A stretch of 64,000 nucleotides of DNA, from assembly GCF_947499845.1 (NCBI RefSeq), contig NZ_CANMPM010000002.1:124001-188000 (forward strand), written 5' to 3'. The stretch comes from an uncultured Pseudokineococcus sp. Lineage in GTDB: Bacteria; Actinomycetota; Actinomycetes; Actinomycetales; Quadrisphaeraceae. The position numbers were made by a program, and so were the translations under genes. The notes under the pieces are model-generated. The model worked only from the letters and a program-made list of their open reading frames with translations, searched no databases and was not told the origin of the DNA. Below are positions 40,286 to 55,636 of this stretch, in pieces (the stretch's first letter is position 1; the number at the start of each line of letters is the position of its first letter).

Positions 40286-41050
40286 TCAGGGCTGCAGGCG
40301 CGCGAGGCGCCAGGCGCCGGCGTCGTCGAGCCGCGACGGCTCACCCGTGACCGACGTCCACGCCGCGCGGTCGTGCAGGCGCGAGGCGCGCCCGGCCCAC
40401 AGCTCGACGGCGACGGGCAGCACCCGCACGCCGCCCCAGGTCGGCGGCAGCGGCACCTCCTGCCCGGCGAAGCGCTCCTCCAGCTCGGCGACGCGGTGCT
40501 CGAGGTCGGCGCGGCTGGCCACGGGCTGCGACTGCGCCGACGCCCACGCCGCCACCTGCGACCCGCGCGGGCGCTGGGCGAAGTAGGCCGCCGACTCCTC
40601 GCGGGTCACCCGCTCCACGCGCCCCCGCAGGCGGACGTTGCGCGACATCGCGTGCCACGGCAGCACCAGCGCCGCGTGCGCGCGGGCCTCGAGCTGGCGC
40701 CCCTTGGCCGACGCGAGGTTCGTGTAGACGACGGCGCCGCGCCCGTCGAGGCCCTTGAGCAGCACCGTGCGCGCGTCCGGGACGCCGTCCGCGTCGACGG
40801 TCGCGAGGACGACGGCGCCCGGCTCGACGACGCGCTCGTCCGCGGCCGCGTCGGCGTACCACCGCTCGAGCAGGCCCAGCGGCGCGAGGGGCGGGTCGGC
40901 GGTCCACAGCGGCGCCTCGTCCTCGAGGCCCGTGCCCGTGTAGGAGACCCGCGCGGACGGGTCGACCACGGGCTCGCGCGCCCCGCCGTGCTCGCCCGAG
41001 GCGCCCGACGGCGCCCCGCCGCCCCCACCGCCGTGCTCGTCCGCGACCAC
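40286..41050 (-). CDS. pdxH: pyridoxamine 5'-phosphate oxidase
   Basis: A 254-aa FMN enzyme oxidising pyridoxine/pyridoxamine 5'-phosphate to PLP. Seen: RVSYTGTGLEDEAPLW at the substrate-binding N-terminus, PDARTVLLKGLDGRGAVVYTN (FMN site), SAKGRQLEARAHAALVLPWH, RGSQVAAWASAQSQPV, and the C-terminal WGGVRVLPVAVELWAGRASRLHDR. The GTG start is 7 nt from TACTCT (41058-41063), indicating a leaderless mRNA. It diverges from the citrate-synthase-like gene, a common actinobacterial pairing. Confidence 0.96.
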   Translation of the reverse strand: MVADEHGGGGGGAPSGASGEHGGAREPVVDPSARVSYTGTGLEDEAPLWTADPPLAPLGLLERWYADAAADERVVEPGAVVLATVDADGVPDARTVLLKGLDGRGAVVYTNLASAKGRQLEARAHAALVLPWHAMSRNVRLRGRVERVTREESAAYFAQRPRGSQVAAWASAQSQPVASRADLEHRVAELEERFAGQEVPLPPTWGGVRVLPVAVELWAGRASRLHDRAAWTSVTGEPSRLDDAGAWRLARLQP

Positions 41051-41129: not shown

Positions 41130-42254
41130 GTGGACGACGACAGCGCGGCCGCGCGCGGAGCGGCCGCCGCGGGCGAGCACGGCGCGCCCGGCGGCCTGGC
41201 GCGGGAGGCGTCGCTCGCCGCGCGCGCCGCCCGGACCACGGCGGTGAGCGAGACGGGCCCCGGCGTCCTGCGCTACCGCGGGCGCGACGTCGCCGACCTG
41301 GCCGGCAGCACCCCCTTCGGGGAGGTGTGGGCGCTCCTCGTCGACGGCGCCCCGCCGTCCGGCGCCCACGACGGCGCCCTGCCCCCCGCCGAGCCCTTCC
41401 CCCTGCCGGTGCGCACGGGCGACGTGCGCGTCGACGTCCAGAGCGCCCTGGCGCAGGTCGCGCCCGTCTGGGGGCTCGCGCCGCTCATGGACACCCCGCC
41501 CGAGCGGGCCCGCGAGGACGTCGCCCGCGCCAGCGTCCTCGCCCTCAGCTTCATCGCGCAGTCGGCCCGCGGGCCGGAGGCGCCGATGGTCCCCCAGCGC
41601 CGCGTCGACCAGGGCCGCACGACGGCCGAGCGCTTCCTCCTGCGCTGGCGCGGCGAGGTGGACCCCGACCACGCCCGCGCGCTCGACGCCGGGTGGACCG
41701 TCCTCGCCGAGGACGGGCTGACGCCGGCCACGGTCACCGCGCGGACGGTCGCCGCCAGCGGCGCCGACGCCGCCGCGTGCCTGTCCGCGGCCGTCGGCAC
41801 GATGAGCGGCCCCCTGTGCGCCGGGGCCCTGCCGCGCGTCCTCCACGTGCTCGACGCCGTCGACCGCACGGGCGACGCCGACCGCGTCGTCGCGTCCGTG
41901 CTCGACGGCGGCCACCGCCTCATGGGCTTCGGCCTCCACGGCCGCGGCGGCCCCGACCCGCGGGTGCCGCTCCTGCGCGACGCCGTCCGCGAGCTCGCGC
42001 CGGCGCGCCTGCCGAGCGCCCTGGCGCTGGAGGAGGCAGGCGAGGCCGCCCTCGCCGAGCGCGCCCGCCCGGACGCCGACGGCCTGCCCCGCACCGCCAA
42101 CGCCGCGCTGTGGGCCGCCGTGCTCCTCGACGGCGCCGGCGTCCCGGCGTCGATGCTCACCCCGCTCGTGCTCTGCGCGCGGACGGCGGGGTGGTCGGCG
42201 CACGTGCTGGAGCAGCACGCGGTCGACCGGGGGGCACGACCCGCGAGTCGCTGA
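41130..42254 (+). CDS. citrate synthase homologue lacking catalytic residues (probable pseudoenzyme)
   Basis: A 374-aa protein aligned by eye to citrate synthase 2 (citA) of actinobacteria: GVLRYRGRDVADLAGSTPFGEVWALL at the N-terminus and PASMLTPLVLCARTAGWSAHVLEQ at the C-terminus are clear. The three catalytic positions are changed: the His of LADH is LAED, the His of GPLHGG is Cys (GPLCAG, about residue 230), the His of GFGHR is Leu (GFGLHG, about 267), and the Asp of PNVD is Ala (TANAAL, about 323). It cannot work by the known mechanism. The frame is intact and codon use is normal, so it is probably maintained. It is divergent from pdxH and is the last gene before the defence island. Confidence 0.85.
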   Translation: MDDDSAAARGAAAAGEHGAPGGLAREASLAARAARTTAVSETGPGVLRYRGRDVADLAGSTPFGEVWALLVDGAPPSGAHDGALPPAEPFPLPVRTGDVRVDVQSALAQVAPVWGLAPLMDTPPERAREDVARASVLALSFIAQSARGPEAPMVPQRRVDQGRTTAERFLLRWRGEVDPDHARALDAGWTVLAEDGLTPATVTARTVAASGADAAACLSAAVGTMSGPLCAGALPRVLHVLDAVDRTGDADRVVASVLDGGHRLMGFGLHGRGGPDPRVPLLRDAVRELAPARLPSALALEEAGEAALAERARPDADGLPRTANAALWAAVLLDGAGVPASMLTPLVLCARTAGWSAHVLEQHAVDRGARPASR

Positions 42255-42309
42255 CGGTCGGCCCGAAGCCGGTTACGGTGCGCGGCACGGGAAACGGGAC
42301 GGGAGGCGC

Positions 42310-45072
42310 ATGACGAGCGGGGGGCACGTCGCCGCGGAGGCGCGCGCTCGCGCGCTCATCGACGCGCAGCTGACGGCGGCGGGCTGGTCAGTCCAGGACA
42401 GGGGCGACATCAACCTCTGGGCCGCGAAGGGCGTCGCCGTCCGCGAGGTGCCCATGGCGCCCGGCCACGGCCGCGCCGACTACCTCCTCTACGTCGACCG
42501 GCGCGTCGTCGGCGTCCTCGAGGCGAAGCCCGAGGGGACGAGGCTGTCCGGCGTCGAGTGGCAGTCGGCCATGTACGCGACCGGTCTGCCCGCCGACGTC
42601 CGCCACAAGGCGGTGACGACGGACGGCCGCCTGCCCTTCGTCCTCGAGTCGAGCGGCACCGAGACGCACCTCACCAACGGCTTCGACCCGTCGCCGCGTG
42701 CCCGGCTCGTCAGCCACCCGCCGCAGCCGGCGACGCTCGCCCGGCTCGTGCGCGACACCGAGACGGACCCGGACCGGGCGACGTGGCGCGCGAAGGTGCG
42801 GCACCTGCCGCCGCTGGCGGTCGAGGGCCTACGCCCGGCGCAGATCACCGCCATCGGGGGCGTCGAGCGCTCGCTCGCCGAGCAGCAGCACGACCGGTCG
42901 CTCGTGCAGATGGCTACAGGCGCGGGCAAGACCTTCACGGCGATCACGCAGGTGTACCGCTTGCTTCAGCACGGCGGCATGCGGCGCGTGCTGTTCCTCG
43001 TCGACCGCAACAACCTCGCCGACCAGACGCTCGCGGGGTTTCAGAACTACCGGACGCCGGGCGACGGGCGCCGCTTCACCGAGATCTACAACGTCGACAA
43101 GCTGACGAGCGCCGGCGCGCTCGGGAGCAGCTCGGTCGTCATCTCGACCATCCAGCGGGTGCACGCGGTGCTCCGCGGCCGGGAGGCGGGCACCGAGGAC
43201 GACCCGAACCTCGACGGGTACGTGCCCGACCGGCCCGTCGAGGCGCCGTACAACGCCGCCGTCCCGCCGGAAGCCTTCGACCTCGTCATCGTCGACGAGG
43301 CGCACCGCTCCATCTACGGGGTGTGGCGCGGGGTGCTCGAGTACTTCGACGCCCACGTCCTCGGGCTCACGGCGACGCCGGGCAAGCAGACGTTCGGCTT
43401 CTTCCGGCAGAACCTCGTCAGCGAGTACACCTACCCGCAGTCGGTCGTCGACGGCGTCAACGTCGACTTCGACGTCTACCGGATCCGGACGCAGATCAGC
43501 GAGCAGGGGTCCGTCATCGACGCCGGCACGGTGGTCCCGACGGTCGACCGGCGCACCCGGCAGCGCAAGTACGTCGAGCTCGACGAGGAGCTCGCCTACA
43601 CGGGACCGCAGCTCGACCGGGCGGTGACGTCGACCGACCAGATCCGCACCGTGCTGGAGACCTTCCGCGACCGTCTCTTCACCGAGATCTTCCCCGGGCG
43701 CAGCGTCGTGCCGAAGACGCTGGTGTTCTGCAAGGACGACGCGCACGCCGAGGAGGTCGTCACCACCGCCCGGCAGGTCTTCGGCATGGGCAACGACGCC
43801 GTCCGCAAGATCACCTACAACGCGCAGGACCCGAAGCGGGCGCTCAACGACTTCCGCCAGACGGCGGCGATGCGCATCGCCGTGACGGTGGACATGATCG
43901 CCACGGGCACCGACGTCCGGCCGCTGGAGTGCCTGCTGTTCATGCGGGACGTGCGCAGCGCCCAGTACTTCGAGCAGATGAAGGGCCGCGGGGCGCGCAC
44001 CATCGCGCCGACGGAGTACCAGGCGGTCACGCCGGACGCCACGGAGAAGACCCGCTTCGTCCTCGTCGACGCCGTCGGTGTCACCGAGCACCCCTTCGTC
44101 GAGCCGCCGCTCAACCGGCAGAAGGGCGCCTCCCTGCAGAAGCTGCTCGACCGGGCAGCCAACCTCACCCTCACCGAGGACGAGGCGGCGACGCTCGCCT
44201 CCCGGTTGTCCGCCCTCGAGCTGCAGCTCTCCCCCGCCGAGCGCACCGAGCTCGACGAGGTCGCCGGCGGGTCGGTGCGCGACGTCGTCCGCAGCCTCGT
44301 CGACGCCGTGGACCCCGACGTCCAGGCGGGCGTCCGCGCCGGGTTGGAGGGCGAAGAAGCCGACCGGGCCGTCACCGAGCTGCTGGAGCGGGCGACCGAG
44401 CCCCTGGCGGCCAACCCGCCGCTACGAGCCCGCATCCTCGAGCTGCGGCGGGCGAAGGACCGCGTGGTCGACGAGGTGAGCGAGGACGTCCTCCTCGACG
44501 CCGGCGGCGTGGTGGACACCGACCGCGCCCGCTCGGTCGTCGAGAGCTGGCGCGCCTACCTCGAGGAGCACCGCGACGAGATCACCGCGCTGCAGGTGCT
44601 CGAGGAGGCCCGCGACCGGCACCTCTCCTTCGACGACATCGAGGAGCTGGCCAACCGCATCAAGCGCCCGCCGCACAGCTGGACGCCCGACCTGCTGTGG
44701 CGGGCCTACGAGGTCGTCGAGACCGGTCGGGTCCGTCACCGCGACAAGGACCGTCTCACCGACCTCGTGTCCTTGCTGCGGTTCACGCTGGGCCAGGATG
44801 ACGAGCTCGTGCCGTACGCCGACGGTGTGGCCGAGCGCTACGCCGCCTGGCAGCGCCAGCAAGAGCAGGCCGGCGTGCGCTTCACCGACGACGAGACGTG
44901 GTGGTTGGACCGCATGGCCGAGGTCATCGCCTCCTCCGCCGGCATCGCCCCGGACGACCTGGAGACGGCGCCCTTCACCGAGCGCGGCGGCCAGGACGGG
45001 CTGCTGCGGGCGCTGGGGAGCGACCGAGGGGTCGAGCTGTTCCACGAGCTGAACCGGGAGCTGACGGCGTGA
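42310..45072 (+). CDS. hsdR: type I restriction enzyme, R subunit (EcoEI-like)
   Basis: A 920-aa DNA translocase and nuclease of a type I R-M system. The N-terminal PD-(D/E)xK nuclease has RADYLLYVD and VGVLEAKPEG (about residues 60-75). The helicase core has LVQMATGAGKTFTA (Walker A, ~200), LVIVDEAHRSIYG (~328), LGLTATPGKQ, VTVDMIATGTDVRPLECLLF and FEQMKGRGART. A long helical C-terminus binds the methylase. It appears intact. The ATG has a GGGAGGCGC ribosome-binding site. Its stop overlaps the GTG of hsdS, but both partners HsdS and HsdM are frameshifted as read here, so restriction activity is doubtful. Confidence 0.95.
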   Translation: MTSGGHVAAEARARALIDAQLTAAGWSVQDRGDINLWAAKGVAVREVPMAPGHGRADYLLYVDRRVVGVLEAKPEGTRLSGVEWQSAMYATGLPADVRHKAVTTDGRLPFVLESSGTETHLTNGFDPSPRARLVSHPPQPATLARLVRDTETDPDRATWRAKVRHLPPLAVEGLRPAQITAIGGVERSLAEQQHDRSLVQMATGAGKTFTAITQVYRLLQHGGMRRVLFLVDRNNLADQTLAGFQNYRTPGDGRRFTEIYNVDKLTSAGALGSSSVVISTIQRVHAVLRGREAGTEDDPNLDGYVPDRPVEAPYNAAVPPEAFDLVIVDEAHRSIYGVWRGVLEYFDAHVLGLTATPGKQTFGFFRQNLVSEYTYPQSVVDGVNVDFDVYRIRTQISEQGSVIDAGTVVPTVDRRTRQRKYVELDEELAYTGPQLDRAVTSTDQIRTVLETFRDRLFTEIFPGRSVVPKTLVFCKDDAHAEEVVTTARQVFGMGNDAVRKITYNAQDPKRALNDFRQTAAMRIAVTVDMIATGTDVRPLECLLFMRDVRSAQYFEQMKGRGARTIAPTEYQAVTPDATEKTRFVLVDAVGVTEHPFVEPPLNRQKGASLQKLLDRAANLTLTEDEAATLASRLSALELQLSPAERTELDEVAGGSVRDVVRSLVDAVDPDVQAGVRAGLEGEEADRAVTELLERATEPLAANPPLRARILELRRAKDRVVDEVSEDVLLDAGGVVDTDRARSVVESWRAYLEEHRDEITALQVLEEARDRHLSFDDIEELANRIKRPPHSWTPDLLWRAYEVVETGRVRHRDKDRLTDLVSLLRFTLGQDDELVPYADGVAERYAAWQRQQEQAGVRFTDDETWWLDRMAEVIASSAGIAPDDLETAPFTERGGQDGLLRALGSDRGVELFHELNRELTA

Positions 45073-46356
45073 CGGCGCTTCCTGACGACTGGCGACCCGC
45101 CACTCTGGGCGAGATCAGCACGCGCGTCCGGAACGGCATCTTCGCTCGACGCCCGAGCAACGAGCCCCCCGGCACGCCGATCCTGCGCATTAGTGCGGTT
45201 AAGGCTGGGCGCGTCGATCTCTCCGACGTCAAATACGTACAAGAGATCGACTTTACAAGTCGACGAGTTCCGCGTCCGCGATGACGATCTCCTCGTGACG
45301 CGTTACAACGGTTCGCGCCACTTGGTGGGCGTGTCGGGCCTCGTCAGCGGTGTCGAGCGCGACATTCTTCATCCGGATAAGTTGATCAAGTTCTCACTCA
45401 GTAGCGGGCACGACGCGCGCTTCGTCAACCACCAGTTGGCATCTGCTAACGCGCGCGCCCACATCGAACCGTTGATCCGCACGACGGCTGGCCAATCGGG
45501 GATCAGCGGACCTTCCTTGCGGAGTACGCCTCTGGTGCTACCGCCGCTCGACGAGCAGCGGCGCATCGTCGCCGTCCTCGAGGACCACCTCTCCCGCCTC
45601 GACGCCGCCGACGCCTACCTCGCCTCGGCTCACGCACGCGCTGAGGCGATGCGTCTCTCGACCGTCCAGCGCCTCCTCGCGGGGGCCCCCTCTGCGGCGA
45701 CTGCGCTCGAAGACCTCCTGGACGTTTCGATCGGCGGCGTCTGGGGCAGCGCACCGGGTGAAGAAGCAGTCGACGTGGCGGTGCTCCGTGTGACCGAGCT
45801 CCGTCCCGGTGGCCGGCTCGACGAACGCACTGCCGCGCGACGCTCGGTCTCACCTGGTCAGCTCGCGAGCCGACGACTACAGGTGGGTGATCTTTTGCTT
45901 GAGAAATCCGGCGGGGGGCCCAAGCAACCGATCGGGCGCGTTGGCCTCGTCGAAGCGGTCACCCAGGATTCCGTGTGCGCCAACTTCATGCAGTTGATGC
46001 GCCCCGACCCGCGGTGCGCGTTACCCCGGTTCTTGCACCTCTATCTCAATCACCTGCATAGTCGCGGCGACACCCTCAGCATGCAGAAGGCGTCGACCAA
46101 CATTCGGAACATCAAGGCGTCCGAGTACGTGCGTCTACCCGTACCCCTCCCCTCGTTGGGCGACCAACACCGCATCGTCGCGCAGGCGGCCGCCGTGGAC
46201 GCCGAGGCTGAAGGCCTCAAGGAAGCGGTCGCCGTGGCGACGCGACGCGGTCGAGCACTCCGTCGCGCCTTCCTCACCGCCGCCTTCACCGGCCGGCTGA
46301 CGGGCCGGTCCAGCGACATGGACGTCGCGGAGGAGCTGGCCGAGGCGGCGTCGTGA
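45069..46356 (+). pseudogene. hsdS: type I restriction specificity subunit HsdS, frameshifted
   Basis: The GTG start overlaps hsdR. The first frame reads LPDDWRPATLGEISTRVRNG...ISAVKAGRVDLSDVKYVQEID and then runs into a stop at about 45284. The continuing HsdS sequence (VDEFRVRDDDLLVTRYNGSRHLVG, two target-recognition domains with LPPLDEQRRIVAVLEDHLSRLD and LPSLGDQHRIVAQ) is in the next frame. One extra T in the TTT run at 45252-45254 explains the break; removing it restores a continuous EIDLQVDEF. Total length would be ~428 aa. Base composition is visibly richer in A/T than neighbours (TTA, AAG, CAA codons), a sign of transfer. It may be a true inactivation, a phase-variable site, or a sequencing error. 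Confidence 0.88.
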
Positions 46357-47334
46357 CCGTCCCCGACTTCCAGACGCTCATGCGCCCGCTGCTGGCCGAG
46401 CTCGTGGAGCGCGAACCCCACCGGGTGCGGGACCTCACCGAGCGGATGTCCGACCCCTTCGAGCTGACGGACGCCGAGCGGGCGCAGCTGCTGCCGAGCG
46501 GGCGCGCGCGGCTCATCGTCAACCGCGTGGGGTGGGCGGTGACGCACATGGCGCAGGCCGGCGTCGTCCACCGGCCACAGCGCGGCCACCTCGTGCTCAC
46601 CGACGCGGGCGCCGAGGTCCTCGCCGCGCACCCGGACCGCGTGGACATGACGGCGCTGTCCACCTTCGCGGCCTACCGCGACTTCCGCAGCCGCACCTCG
46701 GCCGAGGCAGCGCCGCCCTCGGTCGACCCCGTCGTGAGCACCACGCCGACGACGCCCGACGAGGCCCCGGACGTCACCGCAGCGACGTCGCCGCAGGACC
46801 TGCTGGCGCAGGCCGTCGCCGAGAACCGCGCCGCCGTCGAGAGCGAGCTGCTGGACCGCGCCCTCGCCCTCACCCCCACGGACTTCGAACGACTGGTCCT
46901 CGAGCTCCTGCGCGCCATGGGCTACGGCCGGGCGGGCCGGCTCGAGCACTCCGGCGCCTCCGGCGACGGGGGCATCGACGGCATCATCAGCCAGGACTCG
47001 CTCGGCCTCGACCGCATCTACCTCCAGGCCAGGCGCTACGCCGCCGACCACTCCGTCGGCAGGCCCGAGCTGCAGGGCTTCGTCGGCGCCCTCGCGAGCA
47101 ACCAAGGTGATCGAGGGGCCCGCTCGTCATGAGCAGAGGATCACGATGAGCACCTTCACCAAGGACGCCCGGGAGACGACCGACAAGGTGAGCCACCGCG
47201 TCGAGCTCGTCGCCGGCGCCCGCCTCGCCGCCCTCATGCTCCGCCACGGCGTCGGCGTGCAGGCCGAGGCGACGGTGACGCCGCACCGTCTCGACCAGGA
47301 CTCCTTCCAGGCCCCACGCCCCTTGACAGGTTGA
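46353..47334 (+). pseudogene. mrr: Mrr-type restriction endonuclease, frame broken near the C-terminus
   Basis: The GTG start overlaps the hsdS stop (GTGA). The first frame (259 aa, ends 47132) has the Mrr N-terminal winged-helix domain (LMRPLLAELVEREPH..., RIVNRVGWAV-like) and the nuclease domain (ALTPTDFERLVLELLRAMGY, SGDGGIDGII, IYLQARRYAAD). The conserved C-terminus (STFTKDARETTDKVSHRVEL, ARLAALMLRHGVGVQAE) follows in another frame, 47107-47334, from about 47146. A short extra segment around 47115-47145 seems to cause the break. The QxK catalytic motif is QAR here (Lys to Arg). Mrr cleaves modified DNA; this copy is probably inactive. Confidence 0.82.
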
Positions 47335-47380
47335 GCGCGCCTTAACGCATCTTGTTAAAGTGCGTCCAACTGGTTAAGGT
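47323..47380 (+). promoter_or_regulatory. promoter and candidate operator of the ATPase-Fic operon
   Basis: TTGTTA (47352-47357), a 17-nt spacer and TAAGGT (47375-47380), 6 nt before the GTG, form a plausible promoter for a leaderless mRNA. Three GTTAA/TTAAC half-sites overlap it: CCTTAAC (47340-47346), TGTTAAA (47353-47359) and GTTAAGG (47373-47379); the outer two are perfect inverted repeats. This AT-rich patch stands out in the GC-rich region and looks like a repressor operator. Confidence 0.55.
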
Positions 47381-47386
47381 TCCGAC

Positions 47387-48577
47387 GTGGACAGAGCTAC
47401 GAACCCCTACACGCCCAACGCAGGCGCATCGCCGCGCTACCTCGCCGGTCGGCGCGCCGAGGTCGAAGACTTCCGCATCTTGCTGCGCCGCCTCGGCCGC
47501 GGATACACCGAGCAGTCCGTCGTGGTCACTGGCCTTCGAGGCGTCGGCAAGACGGTGCTGCTGGGTCAGTACCAGGCCGTCGCAGCCGACGAGAACTGGG
47601 TCGCCATCGACGCCGAGGTCTCGAAGAACACGCCCTTCGGGCCACAGCTCGCCAACCTCGCGCGTCGCGCACTCCTCCAGGTCTCGCCCAAGGCCCGGTG
47701 GGGCTCTCGCGCACGAGCCGCCGCGGGCGTGATCAAGTCCTTCTCCCTCACGGTGCAACCGGACGGCTCCCTGACCGGTGGGCTCGACGTCGAAGCCGAG
47801 CACGGGCTGGCCGACACCGGCAACCTCAACGACGACCTCGCCGACGTCTTCGAGGCGCTCGGCGCTGCAGCGCGCGAGCGAGACCGAGGTGTCGTCTTCC
47901 TCTTCGACGAGGTGCAGTTCCTCTCCAAGACGGAGCTCGAAGCGCTCATAGGCGCAGTGCACCGCACCGTCCAACGCCAGCTGCCGGTGACCTTCGCTGG
48001 GGCAGGTCTGCCCCAGCTGCCCGGACTGGCCGGCGACGCCAAATCCTACGCGGAGCGACTGTTCAAGTTCCCTGAGATCGGACCGCTCCCCCCGGAGGCG
48101 GCCGCGGAAGCCCTCGTCGAACCGGCGCGCGCTGAGGGCGTCACCTTCGCCGCCGCCGCTGTCACCGACGTCGTCAGCTACACCGACGGCTACCCGTACT
48201 TCATCCAGGAGTTCGGCAGGGCTGTGTGGGACGTCGCCGAGGGGCCCACCATCACGGCCGCTGACGCACGAGCGGCGGTGGACCTCGTCGAGGCGGAGCT
48301 CGACAGCTCCTTCTTCCGTAGCCGGGTCCAGCGGTCGACCCCCGAGGAGCTGCGCTACATGCGCGCCATGGCCGAGCTCGGAGCGGAGGCGCAGAAGGCC
48401 TCGGACGTCGCCGAGGTACTTGGCAAGGCCTCGGAGCAGGTGGCGCCGCTGCGCGCCCGCCTCATCAACAAGGGACTTCTTTACACACCCCGGTATGGCT
48501 ACGCCAAGTTCACCGTTCCGCAGTTCGACCGCTTCATGCACCGCTACATGGCCCTGGACGACGTCCCACCGGCCTGA
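47387..48577 (+). CDS. P-loop ATPase of the archaeal-ATPase/Orc1-Cdc6-like type
   Basis: A 396-aa protein. NPYTPNAGASPRYLAGRRAEVEDF is a typical opening of this ATP-binding family. SVVVTGLRGVGKTVLLGQY is Walker A (about residues 44-62), and RGVVFLFDEVQFLSK is Walker B (~168-182). VTFAGAGLPQLPGL and KSYAERLFKF are the sensor region, followed by a C-terminal winged-helix-like part (SDVAEVLGKASEQVAPLRARLINKGLLY). Such ATPases occur in defence and toxin modules. Its TGA overlaps the ATG of the Fic gene (TGATG), so the two are one operon. Role unknown; a sensor or effector of a Fic-based response is an inference. Confidence 0.85.
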   Translation: MDRATNPYTPNAGASPRYLAGRRAEVEDFRILLRRLGRGYTEQSVVVTGLRGVGKTVLLGQYQAVAADENWVAIDAEVSKNTPFGPQLANLARRALLQVSPKARWGSRARAAAGVIKSFSLTVQPDGSLTGGLDVEAEHGLADTGNLNDDLADVFEALGAAARERDRGVVFLFDEVQFLSKTELEALIGAVHRTVQRQLPVTFAGAGLPQLPGLAGDAKSYAERLFKFPEIGPLPPEAAAEALVEPARAEGVTFAAAAVTDVVSYTDGYPYFIQEFGRAVWDVAEGPTITAADARAAVDLVEAELDSSFFRSRVQRSTPEELRYMRAMAELGAEAQKASDVAEVLGKASEQVAPLRARLINKGLLYTPRYGYAKFTVPQFDRFMHRYMALDDVPPA

Positions 48578-49788
48578 TGGCAGAGAAGCGCCTCAGGCAA
48601 CTCGAGACGAGTCGCGTCTACGACAGTCCGTCACTCGACCGGCACGATCGCCACGTCCTCCATCAGATCAACGACGTGCACAGGCGCCTATCCTCGGCGC
48701 TGCAGAAATCTCCGCGCTCGACCGCAATTCTCCGGCGCTCCGCGCAGGCGCAAGCCATCCGCGGCTCCAACAGCATCGAGGGCTACGTCGTGTCGGAGCA
48801 GGACGCCCTCGCCGCGGTCGACGACGACGAGCCGATGAGCGCCGACCAGCGGACCTGGGCCGAGATCGTCGGCTACCGCCGCGTCCTCACCTACGTGCTG
48901 CAGCTGGCGTCCACGCCCGGCTTCCGCCTCGACGCGATGACCCTCCGCTCGATGCACTTCATGCTGCTCGAGCACGACCTGAGCAAGAGCCCTGGCCAGT
49001 ACCGCCCCGGGGTCGTCTACGTCCAGGACGAGGCGACCGGTCAGGCCGTCTACGAGGCGCCGGACAGCGACGCCGTGCCGGCCCTCGTGGACGCCTTGGC
49101 GGAGCGGCTCGACGCAGACCGCGGGACCGACCCGCTGGTGCGTGGCGCGATGGCGCATCTCAACCTCGTCATGGTCCATCCCTTCCGCGACGGCAACGGC
49201 CGGATGGCCCGCGCCCTGCAGACCCTCGTGCTCGCCCAGGACGACGTCCTCGAACCGAGCTTCTCGAGCATCGAGGAGTGGCTCGGCCGCAACACCGAGG
49301 ACTACTACCGCGTGCTCGCCGCCACGGGCCATGGCGCGTGGCGGCCTGAGCGCGACGCCCACCTCTGGGTCAAGTTCTGTCTGCGCGCGCACCACATGCA
49401 GGCGCAGACGCAGGCGCGGCGCTTCCGCGAGGCTGAGGAACTCTGGAGTGCCATCGACGCGCTCGTCACCGACCACGGGTTGCCGGAGCGCACCGCCGAC
49501 CTGCTCTTCGACGCCGTCCGGGGTGCGCGCATCCAGCGACCGTCGTACGCCCGTCGCGCCGGCCTCGAGGACCGGACGGCCACCCGCGACCTCGGACGGC
49601 TGGTCGACGCCGGCCTGCTCCACCCGTACGGGCAGACCCGAGGCCGCTACTACGAGGCGACCGAGCGGCTGATGCACCCGTTTCTCGCTATGCGCTCCGG
49701 ACGACGGCCACTCGAGGACCCGTTCCCCGAGCTCATGGACGAGATCCGGCGAGCATCGCCACCGGTCACCGAAGCACGGACCGTCTGA
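48577..49788 (+). CDS. Fic-domain protein (AMPylase-type) with N-terminal inhibitory motif
   Basis: A 403-aa FIC enzyme that transfers AMP, or another nucleotide part, to a protein hydroxyl. The perfect core HPFRDGNGRMARAL lies at about residues 201-214. RGSNSIEGY at ~64-72 matches the (S/T)xxxE(G/N) inhibitory helix of class II Fic proteins, so the enzyme should be self-inhibited until released. LSKSPGQYRPGVVYV precedes the core. The C-terminus has a winged-helix-like region (RRAGLEDRTATRDLGRLVDAGLL). It is translated with the ATPase gene from overlapping codons. A defence or toxin-like role is inferred from location. Confidence 0.93.
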   Translation: MAEKRLRQLETSRVYDSPSLDRHDRHVLHQINDVHRRLSSALQKSPRSTAILRRSAQAQAIRGSNSIEGYVVSEQDALAAVDDDEPMSADQRTWAEIVGYRRVLTYVLQLASTPGFRLDAMTLRSMHFMLLEHDLSKSPGQYRPGVVYVQDEATGQAVYEAPDSDAVPALVDALAERLDADRGTDPLVRGAMAHLNLVMVHPFRDGNGRMARALQTLVLAQDDVLEPSFSSIEEWLGRNTEDYYRVLAATGHGAWRPERDAHLWVKFCLRAHHMQAQTQARRFREAEELWSAIDALVTDHGLPERTADLLFDAVRGARIQRPSYARRAGLEDRTATRDLGRLVDAGLLHPYGQTRGRYYEATERLMHPFLAMRSGRRPLEDPFPELMDEIRRASPPVTEARTV

Positions 49789-49817
49789 CTGCCCGAGCCG
49801 GCCAGTACGGTCCGCGC

Positions 49818-50564
49818 GTGATCACCACCGGGGTCGACCTGGCGACGGAGCCCGTGAAGACGGGGATGGCGACGATCCGGTGGGGCACCGACGGCGCGGT
49901 GCTGACAGACCTTCGTCTCGGCGTGGACGACGGTGCGATTGTCGACGCGGCGGCGACGTCGACGAAGCTCGGCCTCGACTGCCCGCTCGGCTGGCCCGAC
50001 GTGTTCGTCGAGATGCTGACGAGGCACCACACCGACCACCTCGAGCCCCACGCGCTGGACGACGCCGACTGGCGCCGTGGTCTGGCCAACCGCGCCACCG
50101 ACGTGGCGGTCACGCAGACGACGGGGCTGCGACCGCTCAGCGTGGCCGCGGACCGTATCGGCCTGACCGCGATGCGGGCGGCCAACCTCCTCGGCCGGCT
50201 CGCCGCCGCGGGCTCGCCTGTCGACCGTGCGGGCACGGGCGTCGTCGTCGAGGTCTACCCCGCGGCGTCTCTTGCGGTCTGGGGTCTCGGCTCCCGCGGG
50301 TACAAGGGCAGTTCTCGGACGGCGGCGCTCGGGGCGCTCGTCGACGGCCTCCTGGAGGCCGCGCCGTGGCTGTGGCTCGGTGAGCACGAGGACCTCTGCC
50401 GGCGGCGTGACGACGCCTTCGACGCGCTGGTCGCTGCACTGACCGCCCGCGCGGCCGCGCTCGGGCTCACGTCCGCGCCGACAGACACGCCTGCGAGGGC
50501 CCGCGCCCGGCGCGAGGGCTGGATCGCCGTGCCGACGTCCGCGCTCAGGGACCTCAGCTCCTAA
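49818..50564 (+). CDS. DUF429-family protein
   Basis: A 248-aa protein with an RNase-H-like fold predicted for DUF429: it opens with TTGVDLATEPVKTGMATI, contains DCPLGWPDVFVEM, RATDVAVTQTTGLRPLSV, VVVEVYPAASLAVWGL and DDAFDALVAALTARAAA. Biochemical function is unknown; acidic residues at DLAT, DCPLG and the DAFDAL helix match a nuclease-like active site. The GTG lies 6 nt from TACGGT (49806-49811), so it has its own promoter 29 nt after fic. It belongs to the island block between the two mrr tails. Confidence 0.85.
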   Translation: MITTGVDLATEPVKTGMATIRWGTDGAVLTDLRLGVDDGAIVDAAATSTKLGLDCPLGWPDVFVEMLTRHHTDHLEPHALDDADWRRGLANRATDVAVTQTTGLRPLSVAADRIGLTAMRAANLLGRLAAAGSPVDRAGTGVVVEVYPAASLAVWGLGSRGYKGSSRTAALGALVDGLLEAAPWLWLGEHEDLCRRRDDAFDALVAALTARAAALGLTSAPTDTPARARARREGWIAVPTSALRDLSS

Positions 50565-50664
50565 AGTCTTTGAGGGAGCCTCGTCAGGCGTAGGGCGAGC
50601 GTGGTACGGACGATCAGTTGTGCCGGGGGCTACCAATGTCACGTCACCACACCGGCCAGGGAGG

Positions 50665-50727
50665 GTGCAGGCGGAGACGACCGTGACGCTGCACCGCCTC
50701 GACGAAGACTTCTCAGAGACGTTGTGA
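50665..50727 (+). pseudogene. remnant of a second mrr 3' end
   Basis: Twenty codons plus stop (VQAETTVTLHRLDEDFSETL) match the C-terminus encoded at 47257-47308 (about 41 of 52 aligned bases identical). Upstream codons show no mrr similarity. It marks the right edge of the ATPase-Fic-DUF429 block. Confidence 0.75.
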
Positions 50728-50772
50728 CCGCCGACCACGGAGACGAGGGTCCAGGACCCCCTCCTGATCCGC

Positions 50773-51897
50773 TCAGGTCGTGCGGACGAGCCTGAGCCCT
50801 TGTCGACCCACCTGCGGCGACGGCTGGCCCTCCGGCGCGAGTGACGGCGCCACCGTCGTCATCGCCAGCCCGAAGGTGAGGTCGTGCACGTCCTCAGGGC
50901 GGAGGCCGAGCGCATCGGCGACGTCGCGCGTCGTCGTCCCGCTCTCCCGGAGAGCGTCGAAGACGATACGCAGGACCTTGGACCGCTCGCGGGCGATGCC
51001 CGCCGGCTCACCTGCCCTGTACCCCATCTGGGTCAGGCGTACGCAGTTCTGACGGTAGGTCCAGTCGCTCATCCGCCCCGCCGCGTGAAGGCTCCGGTTG
51101 AGCGCCATAGCTGAGACCCCGAAATACGCCTTGCTGCGGACGACCTGCGGCGCGGCGACCTCCCGACCGACGCGGGTGCGGAGCTCCTCCACCGGCATGA
51201 GCAGTGCCGCGGCGAACTGGTCCGCCTCGCGCTCGAGGTCACCACCCCCGGAGCGTGAGTGCAGCACGAGGTGCCCCAGCTCGTGCGCGAGGTCGAAGCG
51301 GGCCCGCTCCGGCGTCTTCGACGTCGTCAGGAAGACGTACGGCGCCCCGTCGTGCCACACGCTGAAGGCGTCGACCTCCGCCGCGCCGGCGGGCAGGGTC
51401 AGGACCCGTACGCCATGGGCCTCGGCGAGGTGGACGAGGTTCGGCACCGGTCCCGTCGGCCGGCCCCACCGCCCCCGTAGTGCCGACGCAGCACGCACCG
51501 GGTCGTCGTGGTCGAGCTCCGGCAGATCGACGTCCGGCACCGTGAAGCGCTCGAGCAACCAGGCGTAGAGCTCGATCCCGATGCGCCCCGCCGCGGTGGC
51601 CGCGGCACGCTGCCCGGCGGAGGTCCGCCGGCGGGCGCGGAAGGCGACGCGCTCGTCGTCGACGAGGTCCAGGGCGGGACGCCGGAGGAACTCGCTCGGC
51701 ACGTCCAGGGCCTCGGCCAGGGCCTCGCCGGCCTTGGCAGGGGCGCCCTCCCGCTCGTACGTGCTGACGGTGCGCGGGGTGACACCCAACGTCCGGGCGA
51801 GCGAGGTCATCGTCAACCCGCGCCGCTGCCGCGCGATGGTGACGCGGGAGGGGTCGATGGGCTGCGACTCAGCGGCGCCCGACCCGGACCTCGACAT
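50773..51897 (-). CDS. XRE-family regulator fused to ImmA/IrrE metallopeptidase
   Basis: A 374-aa protein: an N-terminal helix-turn-helix (VTIARQRRGLTMTSLARTLGVTPRTVSTYEREG region, split here as IARQRRGLTM and LGVTPRTVSTYERE) and an ImmA/IrrE zinc protease domain with FDLAHELGHLVLH (HExxH), EREADQFAAALLMP and a C-terminal extension. In phages and defence systems ImmA cleaves its partner repressor to start a response. The ATG at 51897 has a GAGGGAG ribosome-binding site; the ATG at 51927 is possible but lacks one. It overlaps the end of the upstream 228-aa gene by 29 nt, so the two are translated together. Confidence 0.9.
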   Translation of the reverse strand: MSRSGSGAAESQPIDPSRVTIARQRRGLTMTSLARTLGVTPRTVSTYEREGAPAKAGEALAEALDVPSEFLRRPALDLVDDERVAFRARRRTSAGQRAAATAAGRIGIELYAWLLERFTVPDVDLPELDHDDPVRAASALRGRWGRPTGPVPNLVHLAEAHGVRVLTLPAGAAEVDAFSVWHDGAPYVFLTTSKTPERARFDLAHELGHLVLHSRSGGGDLEREADQFAAALLMPVEELRTRVGREVAAPQVVRSKAYFGVSAMALNRSLHAAGRMSDWTYRQNCVRLTQMGYRAGEPAGIARERSKVLRIVFDALRESGTTTRDVADALGLRPEDVHDLTFGLAMTTVAPSLAPEGQPSPQVGRQGLRLVRTT

Positions 51898-52555
51898 CGC
51901 CGTCTCCCTCACCGTCGTCACCTGCATCCCGCGCCGACCCCACGTCGGGTCCGAAGGTCAGCGGCGGCAGGAGGATGCGCTCCACCCAGCCGGTGACGTG
52001 ACCAGTCTCGTCGACGCGGACCGGCAGGGACAGCTCGGCCCTGAGCTGCTGCGGATCCTCGTCACTGAGGTAGTGCAGGAGGATCCACGTCTGCACGCCG
52101 TCGGTGCGCTCGGCGGAGGGATCCGCGACGACCCTGACGTCGAGGGGCAGCGCCATCTGCTCGTTGATGTTGACCGCCTGGACGGTCGACCGACCTCGAG
52201 CTCGAGCGGTCTGCGGCGTCACCTCGACCTCTCCCGTCCCCCGGTCGCCCCGTGCGACGAGGACCGCCGTGGTGCGGTCAGGGCTCAGCACACGCGGGGA
52301 GTTCCGGACGTCGTCGGGCACCCAGTCGAGCTGGACCTCCAACTCGCGTCGAAGCGTCTCGACGGTGGCCAGCCAGCGCAGGATGCCGGCGGCCGTCACG
52401 GGGTGGTGCTCGGTCGCCTGCTGTGCGGACGTCTGCCCCGCTTCGAGCGCCATGATGAGCACGCCCCGCGCGAGACCCAGCTCCTCGAGCCGACGGTCGA
52501 CGTCGCGCCCGCTGACGACGCGGACGGCGCCCTCTCCCTGCGGCACTGCGGTCAT
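51869..52555 (-). CDS. unknown 228-aa protein coupled to the XRE-ImmA gene
   Basis: A 228-aa soluble protein with a helical N-terminal half (GRDVDRRLEELGLARGVLIMA, TAAGILRWLATVETLRRELEV) and a beta-rich C-terminal half (VQAVNINEQMALPLDVRVVA, TWILLHYLS, ELSLPVRVDETGHVTGWVER), ending in an Asp/Gly-rich acidic tail. No family is recognised. The ATG at 52555 is chosen. Its 3' end overlaps the XRE-ImmA start, a toxin-antitoxin or phage-repressor-like arrangement, so it may be the target or sensor of the protease; that is inference. Confidence 0.7.
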   Translation of the reverse strand: MTAVPQGEGAVRVVSGRDVDRRLEELGLARGVLIMALEAGQTSAQQATEHHPVTAAGILRWLATVETLRRELEVQLDWVPDDVRNSPRVLSPDRTTAVLVARGDRGTGEVEVTPQTARARGRSTVQAVNINEQMALPLDVRVVADPSAERTDGVQTWILLHYLSDEDPQQLRAELSLPVRVDETGHVTGWVERILLPPLTFGPDVGSARDAGDDGEGDGDVEVRVGRR

Positions 52556-52744
52556 GAGACCTCCCCGTGGTGTGGAGCCACAGCCTCTCACCAGAGTGCG
52601 CAGAACCAGAAGACCAGCAGGTCAGCGCGCGTGTCGCCGCACGATGTCTGCAGCCGTGAGGTGCCACGACGCCCCGCCTCGCCACCGACGGGGCGTCACG
52701 CAGGACCGCTGGCCGGTCGCCCCAAGGCATCCTTGATGTGCTGA

Positions 52745-55636
<2,892 letters not shown>

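Follow-up and report, generated by a model that had tools for sequence, protein, structure and literature searches.

A putative citrate-synthase pseudoenzyme of the CitA type, conserved in Pseudokineococcus and in other families of its order

In the window (i.e., the whole stretch of 64,000 nucleotides analyzed here, with a GC content of about 70 to 83%), the gene citA2 of Pseudokineococcus, a soil actinobacterium, encodes a protein related to citrate synthase in which the residues expected to perform catalysis are replaced. Is such a gene a copy in early decay, an enzyme turned to another reaction, or a protein retained for a non-catalytic job? The coordinates of the gene, of its altered and retained residues and of its neighbors are collected in Table 1.

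Table 1. Position of citA2, of notable residues of its product and of surrounding features in the window
Feature	Position	Strand	Basis or comparison
pdxH, divergent neighbor (approximate 5' end)	40286..41038	-	TIGR00558, 229 bits
citA2, putative pseudoenzyme gene; product of 374 aa with a citrate synthase fold of CitA type (PRK12350) and replaced catalytic residues	41130..42254	+	ORF, family profiles, PDB matches, orthologues, omega
Insertion RTGDVRVD (residues 95-102), specific to CitA and retained; GltA and methylcitrate synthase lack it	41412..41435	+	positions 97, 98, 100, 101 and 102 invariant in live and dead CitA
Retained Arg168 and Arg172 (RFLLR), equivalent to Arg149/Arg153 of M. tuberculosis CitA	41631..41645	+	alignment, phmmer, PDB titles
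Asp195 at the His position of the LADH segment	41712..41714	+	78/79 live orthologues have His
Cys230 in place of the first catalytic His (GPLH motif)	41817..41819	+	71/79 have His, 8 of Actinoplanes type have Asp
Leu269-His270 in place of the second catalytic His and the Arg after it (GFGHR motif)	41934..41939	+	His in 79/79, Arg in 77/79 live orthologues
Ala326 at the catalytic Asp/Glu	42105..42107	+	Asp 17, Glu 61, Ala 1 of 79
Replaced C-terminal tail, normal RPS arm lost	42232..42254	+	end of homology with sister species
Type I restriction island (hsdR, hsdS, Mrr, AAA ATPase, Fic, M78/HTH, hsdM) between citA2 and serC	42310..54338 (wider limits 42232-54504)		gene content, sister-species comparison
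serC, ancestral downstream neighbor of citA2, directly adjacent in sister species G003	54518..55630	+	TIGR01366, 520 bits

Fold and active site of the citA2 protein

The citA2 frame is open over 374 codons from a GTG start. Its product scored 182 bits against the Pfam family Citrate_synt (cut-off 27) and 362 bits over residues 36 to 373 against NCBIfam PRK12350 (NF009005), above the curated cut-off of 332 bits, which assigns it by descent to the CitA-type subfamily. The nearest solved structures, as found by PDB sequence match, were CitA of M. tuberculosis (about 50% identity) and of M. bovis. An AlphaFold model based on a 22-sequence alignment (pLDDT 84, pTM 0.85) had CitA structures as its top PDB matches (Z about 43) and aligned with 6wgy over 334 residues (Z 43.8, TM about 0.82), a full-length structural match. 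As predicted by this model, the citrate synthase fold is intact. The same genome encodes a second citrate synthase of GltA type, apparently normal and live, on contig 17.

Each of the three catalytic groups of citrate synthase is essential to the reaction, or nearly so. The preliminary description had reported that the catalytic His, His and Asp were Cys, Leu and Ala and that the LADH His was lost in an open frame, and alignment of the citA2 protein with 79 CitA orthologues bore this out: the residues of an active citrate synthase (EC 2.3.3.1/2.3.3.16) are replaced by Cys230, Leu269 and Ala326, and the His-Arg pair of the second catalytic site is absent altogether. The catalytic acid of most live CitA proteins was found to be Glu and not Asp. 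Two substrate-binding arginines, Arg278 (DPR) and Arg351 (RTAGW), are still present. The window protein and those of the sister species alike lack the cross-subunit C-terminal RPS arm. The set Asp, Cys, Leu, His and Ala, with Cys230 at the first catalytic His, is identical in three Pseudokineococcus species (G000, G002 and G003). Among otherwise conserved positions, 16 of 43 were changed in active-site segments versus 16 of 116 for the remainder (Fisher p = 0.002). Since the set is common to three species and changes are enriched in active-site segments, the replacement pattern is more than would be expected by chance.

Features specific to CitA were retained along with the loss of these residues. 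When live CitA, dead CitA (i.e., copies with a replaced active site), GltA and methylcitrate synthase were compared, 34 positions were invariant across CitA, whether live or dead, but differed in the two other groups. They cover most of the insertion RTGDxRVD, as well as Arg168, Arg172, Trp173 and Arg174. Arg168 was found in all 19 dead copies and Arg172 in 16 of them, and equivalents of these two arginines were not found in the GltA and methylcitrate synthase sequences compared. According to the 2023 CitA structure paper, Arg149 and Arg153 of the M. tuberculosis protein reportedly line a pyruvate site. Phmmer matched Arg168 and Arg172 to these residues, which are changed in PDB entries 8gll and 8gmf; the titles of this CitA series name R149E and R153M variants, and that of another entry reads "Pyruvate bound structure". 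The role of the pair in the window protein could also be structural.

The 3' end of citA2 in the window borders on a restriction island of about 12 kb with a lower GC content (about 70 to 73%), which starts right at the end of the gene and whose Mrr gene codes for an endonuclease. The last ~7 residues of the window protein are encoded by island DNA, as similarity to the sister species extends no further than 42231. The sister genome G003 displays an empty site at the place of the island. A different insert of about 6 kb was observed at the same citA2/serC junction in G002 (locus L139), so the junction may be an insertion hot spot in the genus.

Constraint, distribution and origins of dead CitA

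Both sister species with citA2 (G002 and G003) carry exactly the same replacements at 82 to 86% identity, and the gene evolves under purifying selection after the loss. Pairwise codon models gave omega values of 0.050 and 0.058 for the two usable pairs, rough figures because dS exceeds 1, near saturation, and is saturated in the third pair. Corresponding values were 0.056 and 0.065 for pdxH, 0.045 for serC and 0.01 to 0.03 for gltA. Fixing omega at 1 for citA2 worsened the likelihood by 92 to 105 log units. Sister copies with catalytic residues, together with neutral evolution of the gene, had been named in advance as the pattern speaking against a maintained pseudoenzyme, and the reverse was found on both points; the proposal of a maintained pseudoenzyme thus held. 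An in-frame TGA in the G002 copy was considered as a disruption and rejected, as it is the normal stop, past which the profile match runs. In a further genome (G001), the contig with serC ends about 120 to 180 bases upstream of that gene and no citA2 3' end is visible in that stretch; since the contig ends just there, the lack of citA2 and pdxH in G001 says nothing on loss.

Dead CitA was not restricted to the genus. When 396 genomes of the order were searched with PRK12350, CitA exceeded the cut-off in only 61 of them, and examination of 40 loci then revealed three further GTDB families (f3, f12 and f13) with a dead active site. Motifs at the first catalytic His were GPRG, GPIG or GALG in f12 and f13, accompanied by GHS, HQ or GN and by Met, Leu or Val at the other sites, while f3 displayed GPLE, GPLA or GPLS with the second loop deleted or expanded, and G222 displayed GPLA. 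The C-terminus was short in all dead CitA of f3, f12, f13 and G222. Purifying selection was also detected in the other families where the adjoining serC was compared, with pairwise omega of 0.04 to 0.10 for dead CitA in f13 and f3. The full His/His/His/Asp-Glu set was present in 121 of 153 aligned CitA loci, a sample enriched for odd loci that does not give a frequency. As the best 30 class-level loci all had an intact catalytic set, the dead state is a minority condition found mainly inside this order. On sequence comparison, the window citA2 is one member of a real and conserved family of probable citrate-synthase pseudoenzymes.

Other departures from the canonical residues were observed. 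In the CitA of G086 (locus L198, family f15), Gln, Gln and Leu occupy the positions of the three His while the Glu is kept, and the serC of this genome lies on another contig. One metagenome-assembled genome (L103) has Asp at the LADH His and Ala at the catalytic Asp/Glu with both catalytic His kept, possibly an intermediate stage of loss. Eight CitA proteins of Actinoplanes and Paractinoplanes (L106, L120, L122, L125, L126, L127, L129 and L138) have Asp at the first catalytic His (GPLDGGA) and are otherwise intact in their catalytic residues; their activity is doubtful.

In a CitA tree built with the catalytic columns removed, 18 dead CitA of families f1, f3, f12 and f13 formed one clade (support 99/97). 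Its sister group was live Arsenicicoccus-type CitA, and a single long live sequence (L205) was weakly placed between the two. The CitA of G086 fell elsewhere, outside the dead clade, and apparently represents a further independent inactivation. Both dead groups, when placed one at a time, attached to the same Arsenicicoccus-type clade, so their union is not just long-branch joining. The rpoB species tree grouped f3, f12 and f13 in one clade (100/100) and Pseudokineococcus with f2 and f16; forcing the dead-copy genomes together in this tree was disfavored (AU p = 0.026), and serC likewise placed Pseudokineococcus apart from f13 and f3. Vertical descent of Pseudokineococcus citA2 from the CitA of its species-tree neighbors f2 and f16 was rejected (AU p = 0.0008). 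For the dead CitA of the four families, a single loss with subsequent transfer or hidden paralogy is the likeliest history; two independent losses in the same Arsenicicoccus-type sublineage were only weakly disfavored (AU p = 0.05 and 0.013).

Neighboring genes and competing explanations

Ancestrally, the genes were clustered as pdxH-citA-serC. Of the 79 other CitA loci, which are nearly all live, 71 had pdxH and 69 had serC at a distance of up to about 5 kb. In the window, pdxH adjoins citA2 and serC follows downstream, parted from it only by the inserted island. All three dead Pseudokineococcus loci have pdxH divergent and adjacent, and serC lies directly 3' of dead citA on the same strand, at a gap of about 180 bp or less, in G003, in eight f13 loci and in three f3 loci. 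This setting makes it conceivable that citA2 serves PdxH or vitamin B6 metabolism, as the preliminary description had suggested. Among dead-copy genomes, however, pdxH exceeded the TIGR00558 cut-off only in Pseudokineococcus: searches with this profile did not find it in the f3 and f12 dead-copy genomes and returned sub-threshold matches only in f13. Since dead copies persist in f3 and f12 genomes without a pdxH match, PdxH is not the general reason for keeping dead CitA, and the suggestion finds no support as a general explanation, serC being the gene that stays adjacent. A link of citA2 to PdxH or vitamin B6 is accordingly considered very unlikely. By gene order, SerC is a better candidate partner than PdxH. 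Against a SerC linkage, a gene order conserved in actinobacteria does not prove interaction, a 12-kb island lies between the two genes in the window, and no serC of the TIGR01366 type was found in the f12 dead-copy genomes L179 and L180 (G040 and G023), which gave weak matches only; serine synthesis in f12 must differ, or these drafts must be incomplete. Apparent CitA-SerC fusions at loci L197 and L204 were rejected as artefacts in which an in-frame stop had been read through. Literature searches on a citA-serC link found nothing relevant.

That citA2 might be a pseudogene in early decay, or be kept only through coupling of its reading frame or transcript to serC, finds some ground in the outright loss of CitA in many Actinomycetales, from which relaxed selection on catalysis in the order can be deduced. 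Three open frames at dS above 1 with common replacements nevertheless make a decaying pseudogene unlikely, and the low omega, the far worse fit of neutrality, the recurrence of the same state in several families and the 12 kb between citA2 and serC in the window point the same way; this reading is largely refuted and we regard it as highly improbable. That some citrate or methylcitrate synthase activity, residual or altered, persists through an unorthodox mechanism would be in keeping with the fold and the two retained substrate-binding arginines. Such a mechanism would have to do without all three catalytic groups and also without the LADH His and the C-terminal arm, which are missing together, and seems extremely improbable. 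The old active site could also have been remodeled to carry out a different reaction, in which Cys230 or other newly acquired residues would be the catalysts. Cys230, Asp195, His270 and the remodeled GFGLHGRGGPDPR loop are identical or nearly so in the three species, and Arg278 and Arg351 remain available; yet position 230 is Gly, Ala, Glu or Ser in other dead lineages, and their loop is deleted or unrelated, so the dead group has no replacement active site in common, and we hold a new enzyme to be unlikely. Finally, citA2 could act as a regulatory subunit of the live GltA-type enzyme of the same genome through a mixed dimer, as helices 99-114 and 124-147, which would form part of the dimer interface judging by homology with pig citrate synthase, are well conserved. 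The conserved positions in these helices are CitA-specific, however, and their difference from GltA argues against a shared interface, making a mixed dimer quite unlikely.

Our preferred, if tentative, explanation is that citA2 encodes a retained, ligand-binding CitA pseudoenzyme with a non-catalytic job. From its sequence and model, the protein would still fold as a citrate synthase dimer, would bind a small 2-oxoacid or related anion at the Arg168/Arg172 site, and would act as a regulator or scaffold, most plausibly in connection with serine synthesis (SerC) or with central carbon flux; a direct contact with SerC would be a guess from gene order. A bolder and more doubtful version is that a second, non-catalytic role has belonged to actinobacterial CitA from the start, namely to sense pyruvate or another 2-oxoacid and to signal to a partner, perhaps at the step encoded by serC, and that several lineages dropped catalysis and kept the role. 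If so, the retained dead clade would mark the surface by which live CitA, that of M. tuberculosis included, performs a hidden function.

Comparison with known systems

To our knowledge, no stand-alone pseudoenzyme derived from citrate synthase has been described, and none was found in full-text literature searches for inactive or stand-alone citrate synthase pseudoenzymes. A conserved dead CitA family amounts to a natural separation-of-function experiment, in which the features kept after loss of catalysis should be those of a second function of CitA. The "citrate synthase" label of PRK12350 also credits the enzyme to genomes without the needed residues; because many dead proteins, including that of the window, exceed the cut-off, metabolic models that trust the label credit an activity that is probably lacking.

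The GltA-type citrate synthase and the methylcitrate synthase of the same genomes share fold and Pfam family with the window protein, but their active site is intact and they are devoid of the RTGDxRVD insertion and of the Arg168/Arg172 pair. M. tuberculosis CitA (citrate synthase 2, Rv0889c; PDB 6wgy, 8gmk, 8gll and 8gmf) resembles the window protein more fully, in PRK12350 membership, sequence identity, predicted fold, the CitA insertion and the Arg149/Arg153 pair, and differs from it in that its catalytic His, His and Glu are kept, as is its C-terminal arm. Its overexpression raises TCA flux in M. tuberculosis (PMC3101192), which argues that live CitA acts as a citrate synthase. The citrate synthase homology module of ATP citrate lyase is also citrate synthase-like, and was assigned an allosteric and not a catalytic role (PMC10115795). 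Unlike the window protein, to which it is not closely related, this module does not stand alone but forms part of a larger enzyme as one of its domains; it binds CoA, and its catalytic Asp is present.
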